The translations under genes were made by a program, and so were the position numbers. DNA of 34,057 nucleotides, taken from positions 1-34,057 of the forward strand of contig JALQTV010000007.1 in assembly GCA_023268675.1 (NCBI GenBank). The letters are read 5' to 3'. Positions 6,441-17,788 of this stretch are shown piece after piece (the first letter of the stretch is position 1; each line of letters begins with the position of its first letter). The stretch is from Saprospiraceae bacterium (GTDB taxonomy: Bacteria; Bacteroidota; Bacteroidia; Chitinophagales; Saprospiraceae). The notes beneath the pieces were generated by a model, which worked only from the letters and a program-made list of their open reading frames with translations, had not been told where the DNA came from and made no database searches.

Positions 6441-6640
6441 AAATAAAAATTACGGAATCAATTTATCAGAAAATTATCATAGCTCACCAATTGTACTGAT
6501 TTTTCTCATTATCTGTGATTTAGCGGGGGTAAAATTTTTTATTTAGGTCGAAAACGGGCTAAATTAATAGGGAATAAGGGATGGGGATGAGGATATCGCC
6601 TCTTTCCCATGAAAAACAAATTTACCTAAAATCTAATTTT

Positions 6641-8767
6641 ATGGAATACGACAGCGCCAATTTGAGAAATGTAGTTTTGTTGGGGCACTCCGGTTCAGGC
6701 AAAACCAGTCTTGCAGAATGTATGCTTTTTGAAGCAGGGGCCATCTCCAGAAGGGGATCTGTTGATGACCTTTCGGCGGTATCTGATTATACCGACCTTG
6801 AACACGACAGGAAAAATTCAATTTTCAGTACCCTGATGCATGCACGTTGGAAAGACTCCAAGATCAACCTGATTGATACACCGGGTTTTGATGACTTTGT
6901 CGGAGAGGTTGTCGCTTCCATGAAAGTTGCAGATACAGCGCTTATGTTGCTGAATGCAAAACACGGAGTAGAAGTAGGGACGGAACTTCTCTGGGAATAC
7001 ATAGAAAAGTTTCAGACGCCTACACTATTTGTGATTAATCAGGTGGAGGACGAAAAAGCAGATTACGATTTGACGCTCGAACAAGCTGTGCAGCGCTTCG
7101 GATCCAGTGTACTTCCCATTCAGTATCCTTTGGAGCATGGGGAGGGCTTTCACACCATCGTGGATGCACTTACCATGCACGCTTATGTATTCAGAGAAGC
7201 GGGAGGCAAGCCGGAAAAAGAGCCCATTCCCGAATCCGAACTCCAGCGTGCAAAAGACATGCACAATGCACTGGTAGAGGCAGCAGCAGAGAATGACGAG
7301 GGTTTGATGGAACGATATTTTGAGAAAGGTACCCTCACAGAAGAAGAACTTGCCAGCGGACTTAGAATTGCTATTGCCAACCAACAGATATTTCCGGTTT
7401 TTTGTGCATCCGCACTCAATAATATGGGCAGCGGTCGTATCATGGGTTTCATCAATGATATTTGTCCGTCTCCGGCTGACAGACCTGCCGCTCCATTGAC
7501 TGATGGAGGAAAGCTGGCTTGCGATGCCTCTGATAAGACCAGCGTTTTTATTTACAAAACCATTACTGAACCCAGAGTGGGTTTGGTGTCTTATTTTAAG
7601 GTATATTCGGGGGTACTCCGGGCAGGAGACGAACTGGTCAACAGCAAAAACCAGACAGTCGAGCGATTTGGGCAGATTTTTGTGGTCAACGGCAAACAAC
7701 GTGACCAGGTGAATGTCTTGTCTGCAGGAGATATTGGAGCTACTGTAAAATTAAAAAATTCTCATACCAACAATACCTTGAATGCCAAGGGTACAGACAG
7801 GACTATAGACCCTATTCACTTCCCTGAATCCCGGATTCGAGTGGCAGTAGAAGCTTCCAGTAAATCGGATATGGAAAAATTATTCAAGGCGCTGCACCAA
7901 CTCGAAGAGGAAGATCCTACTTTGGTAGTTGAGCAGTCTCCTACTTTGAAGCAGACACTATTGTTCGCTCAGGGGCAATTGCACCTGGATCTTGTTAAAT
8001 ACCGGGTAGAAAAGGGCAGTGGGGTAGAAATGCAGATGGTTCGTCCCAGAATTGCTTTCCGTGAGACCATCACCCGAATGGCAGAAACCCACTACCGCCA
8101 TAAAAAACAGACCGGTGGTGCCGGGCAATTTGCCGAGGTACACATGCGCGTAGAACCGTATTACGAGGGAATGGAAGATCCGGCAGGGTTGAGTGTGCGG
8201 CATAAAGAAGTGGATGATTTACCCTGGGGTGGCAAGCTCGCTTTTTATTGGTGTATCGTTGGAGGTTCCATCGATGCCAAGTATGCCAGTGCTATCAAGA
8301 AGGGGATCATGCAAAAAATGGAAGAAGGTCCCTTGACAGGATCCAATTGCCAGGATGTCCGGGTCTGCATTACCGATGGAAAAATGCACGCGGTGGATTC
8401 CAATGATATGGCGTTTATGCTGGCTTCTTCTCATGCATTCAAGGATGCCTTTGTGGATGCAAGTCCTCAGATTCTGGAACCAATTTTTGATGTGGAAGTA
8501 CTCTGCTCAGAGGAGGCTATGGGAGATGTAATGGGCGATCTGCAGACGCGTCGTGCGATCATCATGGGGATGAGTGCAGAAAGCCATTATCAAAAAATTA
8601 TGGCTAAAGTTCCTCAAATGGAATTGTACCAGTATTCTTCCACCCTGCGTTCGCTTTCGCAGGGAAGGGCTAAGTTTACCCGGAAATTTGCTGAATACCA
8701 GCCGGTAACGCCGGATATACAACAAAAGCTTGTGGAAGCACATGCTCATGTGATGGAAGAAGCCTGA
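6641..8767 (+). CDS. elongation factor G-like translational GTPase (EF-G paralogue)
   Basis: P-loop GHSGSGKTSLAE, DTPGFDDFVGEV, domain IV/V features; ORF track start 6581, ATG at 6641 fits better. Confidence 0.9.
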   Translation: MEYDSANLRNVVLLGHSGSGKTSLAECMLFEAGAISRRGSVDDLSAVSDYTDLEHDRKNSIFSTLMHARWKDSKINLIDTPGFDDFVGEVVASMKVADTALMLLNAKHGVEVGTELLWEYIEKFQTPTLFVINQVEDEKADYDLTLEQAVQRFGSSVLPIQYPLEHGEGFHTIVDALTMHAYVFREAGGKPEKEPIPESELQRAKDMHNALVEAAAENDEGLMERYFEKGTLTEEELASGLRIAIANQQIFPVFCASALNNMGSGRIMGFINDICPSPADRPAAPLTDGGKLACDASDKTSVFIYKTITEPRVGLVSYFKVYSGVLRAGDELVNSKNQTVERFGQIFVVNGKQRDQVNVLSAGDIGATVKLKNSHTNNTLNAKGTDRTIDPIHFPESRIRVAVEASSKSDMEKLFKALHQLEEEDPTLVVEQSPTLKQTLLFAQGQLHLDLVKYRVEKGSGVEMQMVRPRIAFRETITRMAETHYRHKKQTGGAGQFAEVHMRVEPYYEGMEDPAGLSVRHKEVDDLPWGGKLAFYWCIVGGSIDAKYASAIKKGIMQKMEEGPLTGSNCQDVRVCITDGKMHAVDSNDMAFMLASSHAFKDAFVDASPQILEPIFDVEVLCSEEAMGDVMGDLQTRRAIIMGMSAESHYQKIMAKVPQMELYQYSSTLRSLSQGRAKFTRKFAEYQPVTPDIQQKLVEAHAHVMEEA

Positions 8768-8833: not shown

Positions 8834-8923
8834 GCTTAGTGGAGGACGTTTTTGTATTGTTTTGACAATCAACAGGATACTGCGAAGACAGTTTTCTCCA
8901 CTTGTGTTGACAAAACCCCCGGT

Positions 8924-11605
8924 ATGGAATGTAAACTGAATGGACAATCCCTTGCCTTTGAAGCTTCGCCCGGTACTTCCGCTGTCGAAGTGATAAGAGA
9001 ACAATTCAAATTAACAGGCACGAAAAAGGTTTGTGGGCAGGGTGCTTGTGGCGCTTGCACCGTTTTGCTGGATGGCATACCTGTATTGGCTTGCCTTACA
9101 CCGTCGGAGCACCTGGATGGAAAGACGCTGAATACCGTAGAGTCTTATCAGCATTCCGGCCTTCACCCTGTGCAAAAAGCTTTTGCAGCCAACGATGCAC
9201 TGCAATGTGGATTTTGTACTCCGGGCTTTGTCATGCAAGGTATTTTCTTGTACGATAAATATCGAAGCAAAACATCAAATAAGCCTGACCGAAAAGTCCT
9301 GGCGGCGGCCTTGTCGGGGAATTTATGTCGCTGTGGTGCTTATGCTGGTATTTTAGATGCCATGGAACAAGCCATTGCGGGGAAGTACGACGATCCGGAT
9401 TACCTGCCCGATTATCCCAGGGTAGAAGCTCTTGATAAGGTGACGGGTAAGGCTGTATTTACCGCAGACATTATGCTGCCACAGCAAATGACAGGTTTAA
9501 TAGTCAGATCTACACATCCACACGCACGCATCTTGTCCTGCAATCTGGAAGCTGCCCGCCAATTCCCCGGCGTTGAAGCGGTGATTTCGCTTTATGAGGA
9601 GACCGATCCGGTACTTCGTTATGTGGGGCAGGAGATATGCGCCATTGCTGCAGTAGATATGCCTACGGCAAAAAAAGCTGCCGAAAAGATTCATCTGGAA
9701 CTGGAGCCCTTACCTTTTGTGGTGGATCCTTCAGAGGCAGCTTTACCGGATAGTCCGCTGGTTTATAAAGGCAAGGAAAAAAACAGGGCGCCTAATGCAG
9801 CGGAGGGTATTGTGTTACCCGGTAAATGGAAGCACAATACGCGCAGACCATTGGTAGATTTGCTTTCTGTATTTCCCCGCTTGGCAAGTTTTCGTTTGAA
9901 AAGGGCGGCAAAAAGCAAGCGCAGTGCTTTGTTCAGTACAACCTTCACCACTGCTGCGCAAATCCATACCCCATTTGAACCTCATTGCTGTGTAGCGCAC
10001 TGGGAAGGCGAGGACAAGCTTCGAGTATTTTTATCGACTCAGGCAGTCCATTGGTCAGCTCGTGAAATAGCCTCCATTTTTGGGCTTAAGCCCGAAAATG
10101 TAAAACTCACTGCCAACCACGTGGGGGGAGGATTTGGTAGTAAACTGGATCTGGGGATTGAGGTTCCGGTGAGTATTAAGTTGGCTAAAATAACCGGAAC
10201 TCCTGTTAAGGTGGTTTTTTCCCGCAGGGAAGAAATGATGACAGGAGGATACCGCCCCCCAACGCGGATTGCTTTGTCGCTTGCTGCCAATAGGGATCGC
10301 AAAAAGTTAAAGGCACTTTCGGTAAAAGCAGAAACGTTCAGTGGGATTGGAATCAACACACTGGTTGGAGCCATGCTGAGGTTGGTATATCCCGGTATGC
10401 CGAGACTTATTGATGAGCGGGATGTAGTAAGCAACCTGCCTTCTGCGAAGCCTTTTCGGGGGCCCAGTGCACCGCAATCATACTGGGCTATGGAACAGGC
10501 CATCGATGCCATGGCGCTTGAACTGGGAATGACACCGCTGGAAGCACGGATACAATGGGATCCCAATCGTCTGCGACAAGAACTTTTCCGTAAGGTCGGA
10601 AAATTGACTTTGTGGCAGGAAAGACAAGAAAACGGAGCTCAAAGTGGGCGCTTTCGCACAGGAATCGGAATGGCATCGGGTAACTGGTTTAATTTTTTCC
10701 ATCCCAAAACAAAAGTAAAAGTAGCGGTGTCGGCCAAGGGTATTTCGGTTACCACTGCTACCCAGGACATAGGCACAGGTTCCCGGTCAGTCCTGGCGAC
10801 AGTAGTAGCAGAAGTTTTCGGCTTGCCTGCTGCTACCGTAAATGTTTATATTGGCAGTTCCAGCAGTGTGCAGGGACCAACTTCGGGGGGTAGCAGATCT
10901 ACCAATTCTCTGTACAATAGTGCGAAAGAAGCTGCTTTGGAGGTAAGGGGAAAACTTGAAGCAGCTGTAAAAGATAAATTAGGTGAGGAGCTTGCTTTTT
11001 TCGGCGAAGCCGGCATACATACAGCCAAGGGGCAGATAGACTGGAAAGAGCTGTTTGTAAAGGTGCCTGCCATTTCAGCTACCGTAGAAAGGGGGCACAA
11101 TACTCCATGGAATCTATTGTCCAGAGCACCACTCGGAGCGGATGACGTTGCGATGGGACCTGGGAATCTGGCATCGGTATTCGTGGTGAAAGTCGTGGTG
11201 GATACTTTGCTATCGAAGATCAAGGTTGAAAGCGTGTGGGGAGGAATTGCGAGTGGGAAGATTGTTGTACCTGAACTTGCAAAAAGTCAATGTTACGGCG
11301 GGATCATTCAGGGACTCAGTTATGCGCTTTACGAGGAGCGAGAGGTAGACAAATCCAGTGGGATACCGGTCAATCTGAATTTGGAAAATTACCACATTGC
11401 CGGGATTGGAGACGTTCCGGAGATGGATTTATTTTTCTATGAAGCAGGTTTTGAGCAGCACAAAGGGGAAGTGGCAGGTTTGGGAGAAATCTCTACCATT
11501 CCGGTAGCAGCAGCCTTAGGAAACGCCGTTTTCAATGCACTGGGTGCAACTCCCCGGGATCTGCCCCTTACTATTCCACGAATTTCAGCACTACTTTCAA
11601 AATAA
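8924..11605 (+). CDS. xanthine dehydrogenase/aldehyde oxidase family protein, fused [2Fe-2S] and molybdopterin-binding subunits
   Basis: N-terminal CGQGACGACTVLLDG...C, QCGFCTPGFVMQ, GNLCRCGAY; then Mo domain with GGGFGSKLDLG, FRGPSAPQSYWAMEQAID, GLGEISTIPVAAALGNA. ORF track start 8852 is TTG; ATG at 8924 preferred. Confidence 0.92.
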   Translation: MECKLNGQSLAFEASPGTSAVEVIREQFKLTGTKKVCGQGACGACTVLLDGIPVLACLTPSEHLDGKTLNTVESYQHSGLHPVQKAFAANDALQCGFCTPGFVMQGIFLYDKYRSKTSNKPDRKVLAAALSGNLCRCGAYAGILDAMEQAIAGKYDDPDYLPDYPRVEALDKVTGKAVFTADIMLPQQMTGLIVRSTHPHARILSCNLEAARQFPGVEAVISLYEETDPVLRYVGQEICAIAAVDMPTAKKAAEKIHLELEPLPFVVDPSEAALPDSPLVYKGKEKNRAPNAAEGIVLPGKWKHNTRRPLVDLLSVFPRLASFRLKRAAKSKRSALFSTTFTTAAQIHTPFEPHCCVAHWEGEDKLRVFLSTQAVHWSAREIASIFGLKPENVKLTANHVGGGFGSKLDLGIEVPVSIKLAKITGTPVKVVFSRREEMMTGGYRPPTRIALSLAANRDRKKLKALSVKAETFSGIGINTLVGAMLRLVYPGMPRLIDERDVVSNLPSAKPFRGPSAPQSYWAMEQAIDAMALELGMTPLEARIQWDPNRLRQELFRKVGKLTLWQERQENGAQSGRFRTGIGMASGNWFNFFHPKTKVKVAVSAKGISVTTATQDIGTGSRSVLATVVAEVFGLPAATVNVYIGSSSSVQGPTSGGSRSTNSLYNSAKEAALEVRGKLEAAVKDKLGEELAFFGEAGIHTAKGQIDWKELFVKVPAISATVERGHNTPWNLLSRAPLGADDVAMGPGNLASVFVVKVVVDTLLSKIKVESVWGGIASGKIVVPELAKSQCYGGIIQGLSYALYEEREVDKSSGIPVNLNLENYHIAGIGDVPEMDLFFYEAGFEQHKGEVAGLGEISTIPVAAALGNAVFNALGATPRDLPLTIPRISALLSK

Positions 11606-11609
11606 TCGC

Positions 11610-12557
11610 ATGCAGAGTTATTTTCCTCAGACGCTTGAAGAGGCGGGCAAATTATCCGGAGAGTATAGGGCCGGTGGGACGGATGTTCAGGCCAGGCAAA
11701 TTTCGGGTATCCAAAACGAGGCAATTATTGATCTGGGCAAGATCGAGGGTTTGGCAGAACTTGCCGTGCAAACCGAGGGGCAATATCGTTTGGGAGCCAT
11801 GATGCGGATAACTGAATTGGCCGAAAATCCGCTAATTAGAAGTCATTATTCCTTGTTGGCTGAGGCTGCCGGGGGCATTGCTACTCCGCAGATCAGAAAC
11901 ATGAGTACACTGGGAGGGGCATTGCTGCAGCGATCCCGTTGTCCTTATTTCAGAGAGCCGGATTTTGAGTGTTTGAAAAGGGGAGATGAAAACTGTGGAC
12001 TCAGGGCATCGGGGAAGGCCTTGCCACTTTGTTTTGACCTGGGCCCCTGTGCTTATCCCCATCCTTCCACTTTGGGAATGGTATTGTTGGCTTATGACGC
12101 TCAGGTTGAATTGCAGGATAAATCCCTGATAAAAGTAGCTGATCTCTATGGGCAGGGATCAGACAACAGTCTGGAGCATACCTTAAAGTCGCAGGAAATT
12201 TTGACAGCTGTGTGGTTGCCCAAGCCTATGGAATCGGAAAAATCTGCTTATTTCAGGCTCATGAACCGATCCGAGTCAGAGTGGCCATTGATTGAATGTG
12301 CTGTAAGGTTGTTTCATAAAGGGAATTTGATAGAAGATGCGAGCATCACAGTCGGGGGCATAGCCACTGTTCCCCTTCGACTGACTGTTTGTGAAGAGGT
12401 ATTGAAAGGGCAACCTGTGAGTCCGGAGTTATTCGAAAAGGCTGCCCTTGCAGTATCCCAGATGAATTATCCTATTGTGAAGGAATACAAATGGACTTTG
12501 TTGCCAAGCGTTATTCAGGAAACTCTTTCAATCGCTAGTGGCATTGGAGTAGCTTAA
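11610..12557 (+). CDS. xanthine dehydrogenase family FAD-binding subunit (subunit M)
   Basis: EYRAGGTDVQARQ, ATPQIRNMSTLGGALLQRSRCPYF typical of FAD_binding_5/CO_deh_flav; ATG 4 nt after previous stop. Confidence 0.9.
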   Translation: MQSYFPQTLEEAGKLSGEYRAGGTDVQARQISGIQNEAIIDLGKIEGLAELAVQTEGQYRLGAMMRITELAENPLIRSHYSLLAEAAGGIATPQIRNMSTLGGALLQRSRCPYFREPDFECLKRGDENCGLRASGKALPLCFDLGPCAYPHPSTLGMVLLAYDAQVELQDKSLIKVADLYGQGSDNSLEHTLKSQEILTAVWLPKPMESEKSAYFRLMNRSESEWPLIECAVRLFHKGNLIEDASITVGGIATVPLRLTVCEEVLKGQPVSPELFEKAALAVSQMNYPIVKEYKWTLLPSVIQETLSIASGIGVA

Positions 12558-13688
12558 GGCATTGGTGATAGCGGTGGCAATTTTAGGTGCATCTCTCCGA
12601 ATAATTCCCAGTATGCCACCGAGTGAGTAATTGTCATAGCCCAGAAAAAACAATCCTCTGTATTTTTGTTCTCCGATCAGGTATTTGGGAACTTCATAGC
12701 GGTCGAGCAGGCCCTCTGTATCTCCCAGAAATTCTTCTACAGCAGCTTTGTATCCTGTTGCCAGGATGATGGTGTCGATTGTAGCTTCTGAGCCATCACT
12801 GAAGCGAACCCCTGACGGCGTAATTTCATCTATACCGGGTACTACTTTTATTTTTCCTTTTTTTATCTGTTCCAATGTACCGATATCGATGACGGGAGTT
12901 TTACCGGTGACGCGCAATTGTTTTCCCGGAGGCATGGCAGGGGTAGTGATGCCATATTTTTTCAGGTTGCCGACTGTCAGGGAGCGGAGGAGGATTCCCA
13001 GGTTGTCACCCAGCCAGTTGGGAAGTTTTGCCAGTTTCATGGCTGTCAACTGTGTAGGTCTGCCAAAAGCATCCCGTGGGACAATGTTTACCGGATGACG
13101 TACAGAAATCCAGGTAGGGATATCGTGCTCGCTTAGATCCAGGGCAATTTCAGCACCGGTATTCCCCATGCCAATCACCAGGACTTTTTTGCCCCGGAAG
13201 GGCTGTGAATTTTTGAACTCCCGGCTGTGGATGATTTTTCCGCTGAAATTTTCTTGCCCTTTGAAGTGGGGGATATTGGGTATCCGGTTGACTCCGGTTG
13301 CAAACACCATCAGGGGAGAACGATAAGTTACACCAGATTCAGTAGCAGCCTCCCAGTAATCTCCGACCTTTTGGACGGCAATTACTTTTTGATGGAATTG
13401 CGGTTGGATGTCGAAATGAGCTGCATAAGACTCAAAATATCCGATCAGTTCTTTTCGGGAAACATATCTGGGGTAGGCTTCGCCAAAAGGGAAATAGGGC
13501 AGGTGTGAAAACTCTTTTACGGTGTGCAAATGCAGTCTGTCGTAATGCTGGTGCCAGGAATCGGCAATGTTTCCGCTTTTTTCAAGCAGGATATAGGGGA
13601 TGCCTTCCCTGTGAAGGCAGGCAGCTATGGCGAGGCCTGCGGGACCCGCTCCGATGATGGTTACCTGGTTTTGGATTGTATTTTCCAT
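12528..13688 (-). CDS. flavin-containing monooxygenase, YUCCA-like NAD(P)/FAD-dependent oxidoreductase
   Basis: VTIIGAGPAGLAIAACL, VLVIGMGNTGAEIALDL, GKTPVIDIGTLEQIKKGKIKVVPGI, IILATGYK. Confidence 0.9.
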   Translation of the reverse strand: MENTIQNQVTIIGAGPAGLAIAACLHREGIPYILLEKSGNIADSWHQHYDRLHLHTVKEFSHLPYFPFGEAYPRYVSRKELIGYFESYAAHFDIQPQFHQKVIAVQKVGDYWEAATESGVTYRSPLMVFATGVNRIPNIPHFKGQENFSGKIIHSREFKNSQPFRGKKVLVIGMGNTGAEIALDLSEHDIPTWISVRHPVNIVPRDAFGRPTQLTAMKLAKLPNWLGDNLGILLRSLTVGNLKKYGITTPAMPPGKQLRVTGKTPVIDIGTLEQIKKGKIKVVPGIDEITPSGVRFSDGSEATIDTIILATGYKAAVEEFLGDTEGLLDRYEVPKYLIGEQKYRGLFFLGYDNYSLGGILGIIRRDAPKIATAITNALSYSNATSD

Positions 13689-13710: not shown

Positions 13711-14154
13711 TCAGGAAGATAGTTTTTCTTTCTGGCGGATTTCTTCTGCAAGATAATCCGGTAAATTTACCTTTTTCAATTGTTTGTAATCGTAAGTGAC
13801 CATGTGTCCTCGGGCGATGGCGATCAATCGCTCGTATTTTTGACTGAACATATGTGCTTCCATTAAGACCCTGTCTTCCCGGATTTCGGTAATGGATATG
13901 CCAATATGGACAGTGTCCGGAAAGGTCACAGGAAAAATATATTTGCATTCCTGCCACCCCAGAATGAAATCCACTTCATTTTCAGGGCTTATCAGGTTGA
14001 TGCCAAGATCCATAAAATATTTGATTCTGGCTGATTCGAACCAGCGAAGATAGGTCACGTTGTTGACATGAGAGGCGGCATCCATGTCTCCCCACTGTAC
14101 TTCTATGCGGAGATTGGAAAAAAAATTGTTTGCTAGTGCTTCCTGAAAACCCAT
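13711..14154 (-). CDS. acyl-CoA thioesterase (4-hydroxybenzoyl-CoA thioesterase / hotdog fold)
   Basis: VQWGDMDAASHVNNVTYLRWFESARIKYF motif. Confidence 0.9.
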   Translation of the reverse strand: MGFQEALANNFFSNLRIEVQWGDMDAASHVNNVTYLRWFESARIKYFMDLGINLISPENEVDFILGWQECKYIFPVTFPDTVHIGISITEIREDRVLMEAHMFSQKYERLIAIARGHMVTYDYKQLKKVNLPDYLAEEIRQKEKLSS

Positions 14155-14157
14155 ATT

Positions 14158-14748
14158 TTATGTTTTGTTTTTTCCAAATGGCTTGTCCAACAGTATGCGA
14201 GCATAACCTCCAACCAGATCCAGTAAAAAGTGTGCGGCTATTACAGCCCAAAGGTTTTGGAGCTGCAAGAATACCAGACCCAGAAAAACAGCCATTGCTA
14301 TGATTTTTACCACAGCTTTCCATCCCTGGTACAGGTGCACTACTCCAAAGGCTATTGCGGGTAACAACAACGACAGACCTATTCCTGTTGCTTGAGTGCC
14401 GGCCATGCTGATAACATAAGAAATAAAATAAGCTCTGTATAGTATTTCTTCTGTGACAGCAGCAGTAAAAGCTACAAAAACGTAGTGCAGGTATTCTTGT
14501 CCATTGGCAGGCAAAATTGCAAGGGTAGTTTTATCCGCTTCAGACATTGTTTCAGCACTGCGAAGCCCTGCTATGAAATCTATCAGATACAAAACTGCAA
14601 AAACCAACATAATATAGAGTGGCTGACCTGCGAGGGGTGGTGGATACCCAAAGCCCAGATTCCAGAAACTTCTGCCGGAGCTAAACCATATCAGCAGTAC
14701 AATGGCAGTTAAAACCCACATGCTGAGGCTATTGGAATAATACAGCAT
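14158..14748 (-). CDS. CPBP family intramembrane glutamic endopeptidase (CAAX protease-like), main reading frame
   Basis: EEILYRAYF, FGVVHLYQGW and AHFLLDLVGG motifs. Probably N-terminally incomplete as called: see upstream fragment. Confidence 0.85.
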   Translation of the reverse strand: MLYYSNSLSMWVLTAIVLLIWFSSGRSFWNLGFGYPPPLAGQPLYIMLVFAVLYLIDFIAGLRSAETMSEADKTTLAILPANGQEYLHYVFVAFTAAVTEEILYRAYFISYVISMAGTQATGIGLSLLLPAIAFGVVHLYQGWKAVVKIIAMAVFLGLVFLQLQNLWAVIAAHFLLDLVGGYARILLDKPFGKNKT

Positions 14749-14882
14749 TTTTTTGATCTTCCAATTTTCCAGAGCCGACGGGGAAAATTATTGCCACCGT
14801 TGCCCAATGACCGTAGTGGGAGCAGCAGGCCCAGGAACAAAATGAACAGATGGTCAAAAAAATTAGGTTCAAAATGCAGCAT
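14749..14882 (-). other. out-of-frame N-terminal segment of the CPBP protease (joined by -1 frameshift or an indel at the A7 run)
   Basis: Minus-strand ATG at 14882 translates MLHFEPNFFDHLFILFLGLLLPLRSLGNGGNNFPRRLWKIGRSKK, typical CPBP N-terminal TM segment; ends in tcA_AAA_AAA, whose -1 frame is MLYYSNSLSMW of the main ORF. Confidence 0.7.
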
Positions 14883-15135: not shown

Positions 15136-15909
15136 ATGGGATTAATTATTTCTATGCTTAATCATAAAGGAGGAGTCGGCAAAACAACCAGTGCTGTGAA
15201 TATCGGAGCTGCCATGGTGGAGCTGAACAAAAAAGTCTTGCTGGTTGACCTTGATCCTCAGGCCAATCTTTCTCTTTCTTTGGGAGCTCCCCGAGTGCCA
15301 CATACGATCTATGAGGCCATGCGGGGAGAGGCAGATCTAAACCCTGTCAACATCAAGGAGGGCATGGATGTGATTATTTCTACGTTGGATCTCTCGGGAG
15401 CGGAATTAGAATTGATCAATGAAGCAGGAAGGGAGTACATTCTCAGAGAGTTATTCGAGGGGATAAAAGACCAGTATGATTTCGTAATCATTGATTGTCC
15501 GCCGTCTCTGGGGCTTTTGACACTCAATGCCCTGACTTGCAGCGACTATGTCTATATACCGCTACAGGCTCAGTTCCTAGCCCTTCAAGGATTGGCTAAG
15601 ATCAAACAGGTTATTCAGAAAGTCAAGTTGCGGCTGAATAAAAAACTGCAGATTGGCGGGGTGATTGCAACCATGTACGACAATCGGAAGGTACTGAATA
15701 GGGATGTTGTAGAGACGATGATCAAGTATTTCGGCGATGCTGTGTTCAATACTTATATCCGGGAGAATGTTGCACTTGCGGAAGCACCTGCACATCGCAA
15801 GGATATTTTTGAATACAATAGGACAAGCCCGGGGGCAATTGATTACCTGGAGCTGACGAAGGAAATTCTGGAGCGTACTGCCAAAACTACGTTGGAGACA
15901 CAGGCTTAA
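15136..15909 (+). CDS. parA: ParA family ATPase (Soj-like)
   Basis: Deviant Walker A NHKGGVGKTTSAVNIG, LLVDLDPQANLS, IIDCPPSLGLLTLNAL. Confidence 0.93.
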   Translation: MGLIISMLNHKGGVGKTTSAVNIGAAMVELNKKVLLVDLDPQANLSLSLGAPRVPHTIYEAMRGEADLNPVNIKEGMDVIISTLDLSGAELELINEAGREYILRELFEGIKDQYDFVIIDCPPSLGLLTLNALTCSDYVYIPLQAQFLALQGLAKIKQVIQKVKLRLNKKLQIGGVIATMYDNRKVLNRDVVETMIKYFGDAVFNTYIRENVALAEAPAHRKDIFEYNRTSPGAIDYLELTKEILERTAKTTLETQA

Positions 15910-16487: not shown

Positions 16488-17693
16488 TTACCGCTCCAAA
16501 ATACAGGCATATCCCTGACCTACACCTATACACATGGTAACAAGGGCATATTTCTTTCCCGTAAGCTGTAATTGAAGGGAGGCTGTTTGTAATAGCCTTG
16601 CTCCACTCATACCCAAGGGGTGTCCAATAGCAATGGCTCCTCCGTTGGGATTGATTCGGGGGTCATCGTCTGCGAGTTGGAGCGAGCGGGTGCAGGCCAG
16701 TACTTGTGCTGCAAAAGCCTCATTGATTTCGATGATGTCCATTTGATCCAGGCTTAAACCTGCTTTTTGCAAGGCTTTTCTGGACGCTTCGACCGGACCT
16801 ATTCCCATGATTCGAGGTTCTACTCCTACTACAGCGGAGGCCACTACCCTGGTGAGGGGAGTGAGTTGATGGTCTTTTAGTCCCTGTTCGGATGCAATCA
16901 ACAAGGCTGCTGCTCCGTCATTCAAGCCCGATGCATTGCCTGCGGTGACGGTACCCCCGGATTTTTTGAAAGCTGTTCTGAGGGTAGAGAGTACTTCCAG
17001 GGTGGTGTCCGGTTTGATGAACTCATCTTGATCGAACAGGATGGGGGCAGCTTTTTTTCGGGGAATTGGAACGGGGGTGATTTCTCGTGCAAGTCTGCCA
17101 CTTTGTTGGGCAGCATAAGCCTTCTGTTGTGATTCGAAAGCAAATTTGTCCTGGTCTTCACGGTTGATGTTGTATTTTTCAGCCAGGTTTTCGGCAGTTT
17201 GCCCCATGCTTTCTGTTCCGTACAACTCTTCCATCAGAGGATTGATAAACCGCCAGCCAAAGGTGCTGTCGTAAAGTTTGGCATCGTTGCCAAATGGAGT
17301 GGCTGATTTGGAGAGCACCCAGGGTCCTCGAGTCATGTGCTCTACTCCGCCGGCAATAAAAAGATCACCATCACCGGCTTTGATTCCCCTAACTGCATGA
17401 ATGGCAGCGGACATACCGGAAGCACAGAGACGATTTACGGTTTCTCCGGGTACCGAGTAAGGAAGCCCTGCGAGCAGCAGAGCCATGCGAGCTACGTTGC
17501 GGTTGTCTTCTCCGGCCTGATTGGCGCAGCCAAAAATTACATCTGCAATGGCCGAAGGATCCAGATTGGGCTGTTTCTCAAGTAAGGATTTGATAACGGT
17601 AGCTGCCAGATCATCGGTTCTTACGGCAGATAATCCTCCTCTGAGCTTTCCAACGGGGGTTCTTGTGGCATCAACGATGTAAGCATCCTTCAT
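16488..17693 (-). CDS. acetyl-CoA acetyltransferase / 3-oxoadipyl-CoA thiolase-like
   Basis: VNRLCASGMSAAIHA, EINEAFAAQVL, NPNGGAIAIGHPLGMSGARLL, CIGVGQG; ORF track start 17759, MKDAYIVDATRTPVGK at 17693 likely. Confidence 0.92.
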   Translation of the reverse strand: MKDAYIVDATRTPVGKLRGGLSAVRTDDLAATVIKSLLEKQPNLDPSAIADVIFGCANQAGEDNRNVARMALLLAGLPYSVPGETVNRLCASGMSAAIHAVRGIKAGDGDLFIAGGVEHMTRGPWVLSKSATPFGNDAKLYDSTFGWRFINPLMEELYGTESMGQTAENLAEKYNINREDQDKFAFESQQKAYAAQQSGRLAREITPVPIPRKKAAPILFDQDEFIKPDTTLEVLSTLRTAFKKSGGTVTAGNASGLNDGAAALLIASEQGLKDHQLTPLTRVVASAVVGVEPRIMGIGPVEASRKALQKAGLSLDQMDIIEINEAFAAQVLACTRSLQLADDDPRINPNGGAIAIGHPLGMSGARLLQTASLQLQLTGKKYALVTMCIGVGQGYACILER

Positions 17694-17788
17694 AGCAGCG
17701 TCATTTTTTGACATAAAAATAAGCAAAGTAGGATATATCACTTTAATTGAACAGGGCAAATGCTAACTTTAACCCAAATTTTAAAACT

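Follow-up and report, generated by a model that had tools for sequence, protein, structure and literature searches.

A predicted CPBP protease gene split between two reading frames in a Saprospiraceae draft genome, very probably by an isolated indel

Programmed -1 frameshifting at A_AAA_AAA or A_AAA_AAG is known from bacterial dnaX genes and from the transposases of IS elements. In the window, by which we mean the whole stretch of 34,057 nucleotides of Saprospiraceae DNA that was analysed, a protease gene is split in the assembled sequence between two reading frames that overlap at such a heptamer. Is this a site at which ribosomes are made to change frame, or is it a gene broken by an indel in the genome or its assembly?

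The basic layout agrees with a preliminary description of the locus. The minus-strand reading from the ATG at 14882 (MLHFEPNFF...GRSKK in translation), the run of seven As (A7) in the phase of the upstream frame, and the switch from this run into MLYYSNSLSMWVLTAIVLL are all present in the sequence. The early stop that had been described for the upstream frame is also found, as the ORF continues past the junction for 12 out-of-frame codons and its stop is the TAA at 14711-14709. Relative to the upstream ORF, the downstream one is in the -1 frame; it is open back to 14787, preceded by a TAA at 14790-14788; the last A of the A7 run is the A of its ATG. The break could lie somewhere in the 77-nt overlap, upstream of the conserved YY-NS motif, and A7 would be its natural site but an unproven one. 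In close orthologues, helices one and two are connected by a loop of 24-27 residues that varies in sequence; this loop has 26 residues in the joined reading of the window, and the break cannot be pinned to one base because the length and sequence of this loop vary too much among orthologues.

Table 1. Features of the split protease locus and its neighbours, in window positions. G001 is the same-genus genome used for comparison.
Feature	Position	Strand	Description	Basis and comparison
Thioesterase neighbour, 4HBT_2	13711..14154	minus		Pfam; order same in G001
Downstream ORF	14158..14748	minus	196 aa from ATG 14748; remainder of predicted CPBP/Rce1-like membrane protease	
Two-frame overlap	14711..14787	minus	77 nt open in both frames; A7 run inside	
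A7 run, A_AAA_AAA	14754-14748	minus	In slip phase (tcA AAA AAA) of upstream frame	
Upstream ORF	14882 to 14709	minus	57 codons; N-terminal segment and first membrane helix of predicted CPBP protease	
ParA/Soj-type ATPase neighbour	15136..15909	plus, divergent		Pfam; 94% identical in G001; synteny

The predicted product is a standard Rce1-like (CPBP) intramembrane protease. The downstream ORF matches the family domain PF02517 in Pfam over residues 86-179 with 58.7 bits against a cut-off of 22.4 (E=7.2e-16). It contains all the catalytic motifs of the family, EExxxR, FxxxH (here FGxxH) and HxxxD/N (here HxxxD), as EEILYR, FGVVH and HFLLD, aligned with those of the orthologues. Like the family, the window protein combines a domain score above the curated cut-off and retained catalytic motifs with a multi-helix membrane topology, and its N-terminal FDHL...P helix is as in Saprospiraceae orthologues. 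It differs in that its gene occupies two frames in the present assembly.

Comparison within the genus was made with one genome, G001, since the genus search gave no other and there was no second genome of the species; a scan of genome contigs turned up nothing except Saprospiraceae bacterium MAG_85, a MAG of this genus. The orthologue in G001 is a continuous frame of 257 aa with 56% identity to the joined reading over query residues 1-228. It includes the N-terminal MLxFEPxFFDHL, and residues 1-45 of the upstream ORF align with its N-terminus. The order of the ParA, thioesterase and FMO-like genes around the protease is the same in G001 and the window. Because G001 has both parts in one frame with the same neighbours, this comparison shows the two ORFs to be one predicted CPBP protease gene, and the orthologues thus bear out the earlier proposal that the two parts belong together. 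In a DNA alignment, neither A7 nor the heptamer is present at the corresponding place in G001.

Elsewhere in the window, a 728-aa EF-G-like translational GTPase gene (6581-8767 (+); PF00009 and EFG domains) is missing from the syntenic position in G001, at which ~140 nt separate the matches to its flanking genes (L033 2110-2247). Additionally, a molybdopterin dehydrogenase pair (8852-12557 (+)) consists of a 917-aa protein that fuses 2Fe-2S and MoCo-binding domains and a FAD-binding subunit whose gene overlaps the preceding fusion gene.

We searched 398 Saprospiraceae genomes, including the window's own, and found protease matches at E<=1e-6 in 89 of them (88 of 397 without the window's genome). 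None of the 88 other matching genomes has a break at this place, and among the matches listed only the window's own has internal stops. Our alignment contained 49 loci, with ~35 family orthologues well aligned across the break region. The comparison shows the frame break to be private to the window's genome among the genomes compared. A seven-base homopolymer occurs somewhere in the surrounding segment of three more distant orthologues, with the frame unbroken. Only one other homologue looks frame-split, that of G251, in which the boundary of the two pieces falls between query residues 108 and 121. This gene (L064 1300-2100 (-), G251:C66) appears to be broken elsewhere, close to T runs, and looks like a case of independent decay or an assembly problem.

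The draft genome that contains the window totals 3.35 Mb over 555 contigs, with a completeness of 88.5%. To sample the rate of frame breaks, ~298 kb of this genome was compared with ~1.31 Mb of G001. In the sampled parts, 67 G001 genes had homologues at 50% identity or more, and 65 of these were full length in one frame (66 of 68 in the reverse comparison); the assembly is therefore not generally full of frame errors. The two exceptions among the 67 are the CPBP gene, the only clear break, and a weak ORF with internal stops. Differences from G001 at the three codon positions number 12/3/18 in the 31 codons of the N part and 57/31/113 in the 179 codons of the C part. These mainly third-position differences, used alone because NG86 dS was saturated, show both parts of the predicted protein to be under constraint at the protein level relative to G001. 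Amino-acid changes are not clearly more numerous on the branch of the window (14 vs 7 and 39 vs 35), and the break is therefore young or not real.

A programmed -1 ribosomal frameshift would control how much full protease is made relative to a short N-terminal peptide. The heptamer does lie in the overlap in the correct phase, as in dnaX and the IS elements, and a 7-A cassette gave ~10% frameshifting in a published reporter assay (PMC3711429), so that some rescue by slippage is possible even without a selected signal. Selection against A/T runs that is attributed to transcriptional slippage becomes visible in many genomes only at lengths of about nine bases and more (PMC1088944). Unlike in those systems, the frame arrangement of the window gene is not conserved, the break being found in no orthologue and the heptamer being absent from the nearest one; the preliminary description had itself named such an outcome of the alignment as speaking against its proposal. 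The window site also differs from them in having no stimulator. SD-like motifs, searched with the set used in PMC4066793, are missing from the 30 nt upstream of the heptamer. The stimulatory structure that had been suggested as a check on the downstream RNA was not found, as this RNA folds no better than its shuffles (z=0.61; z from -1.0 to 2.1 over 16 folding windows), and Rfam gave no match in the window. Stimulators are not mandatory in every bacterial programmed -1 frameshift. A7 occurs 23 times on either strand of the window compared with 25.7 +/- 6.1 times in dinucleotide shuffles, and four apparently unbroken window genes (111-1361, 8852-11605, 12528-13688 and 16488-17759) have A_AAA_AAA in this slip phase as well; the heptamer alone is therefore not beyond chance. 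The peptide made without a frameshift would consist of one helix, for which we know of no use. Altogether, we consider programmed frameshifting highly unlikely here. The chance that A7 is a recoding site of recent origin, specific to the species, through which the CPBP protease continues to be made in lower amounts, is slightly better but still very small.

Two further readings have also been weighed. Switching of the gene by changes in the length of A7 is suggested by the homopolymer at the break. A phase-variable tract is expected to be unusually long and conserved or variable among strains, whereas this run has only seven As, A7 is no more frequent in the window than expected by chance, and the same-genus orthologue has none. 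Phase variation, which had been listed among the possible explanations, is the least probable of those considered here. Alternatively, the gene could in practice be the 196-aa protease from ATG 14748, with the upstream ORF as a non-functional remnant or leader. This ATG lies at an A-rich site and the PF02517 domain is complete in the downstream ORF, but constraint relative to G001 is about equal in the upstream part and the rest, and the first-helix region is in the same frame in close family orthologues. We regard this reading as improbable, though the least improbable of the alternatives.

The remaining explanations of the preliminary description, a recent frameshift mutation or a sequencing or assembly error, are supported, since the orthologues are intact and the break occurs in one genome alone among those compared, the pattern that characterises an isolated indel. 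One isolated indel, either an assembly or sequencing error or a recent mutation of the lineage, is very probably the cause judging from these comparisons, and a single error and a single recent indel fit about equally. Against it, the sampled assembly is otherwise clean, and A7 in perfect slip phase would be present within only ~1% of random 77-nt stretches by our own estimate from shuffles. Indels favour homopolymers anyway. The case resembles the singleton frame-broken genes of the GeneTack survey (PMC3711429), which are ascribed to error or recent indel, in being single and unclustered with a joined product validated by homologues, and we found no difference from them. In that survey, unclustered, BLASTp-validated frame breaks are expected to be mostly sequencing errors (PMC3711429).

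We infer the cause of the break and any residual expression as follows. The indel would sit in the short loop that connects the first membrane segment of the protease with the second. Either the draft consensus would be wrong at or near A7, or a frameshift mutation would have arisen recently in the sampled lineage. With a real mutation, translation would mostly terminate after 57 codons, and small amounts of product may still arise by slippage on A7. Alternatively, a start at ATG 14748 would yield the 196-aa protein, with all catalytic motifs and without the first helix.

A literature search for frameshifted CPBP genes returned nothing relevant. The case matters for annotation and for little else: the proper entry is a single CPBP protease gene that comprises both pieces and has a frame break private to this genome, and the site does not belong in lists of programmed frameshifts. 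The in-phase A_AAA_AAA is common in the window's genome and is by itself no evidence of frameshifting; the four intact genes that carry it provide a useful control for frameshift calls based on the heptamer.
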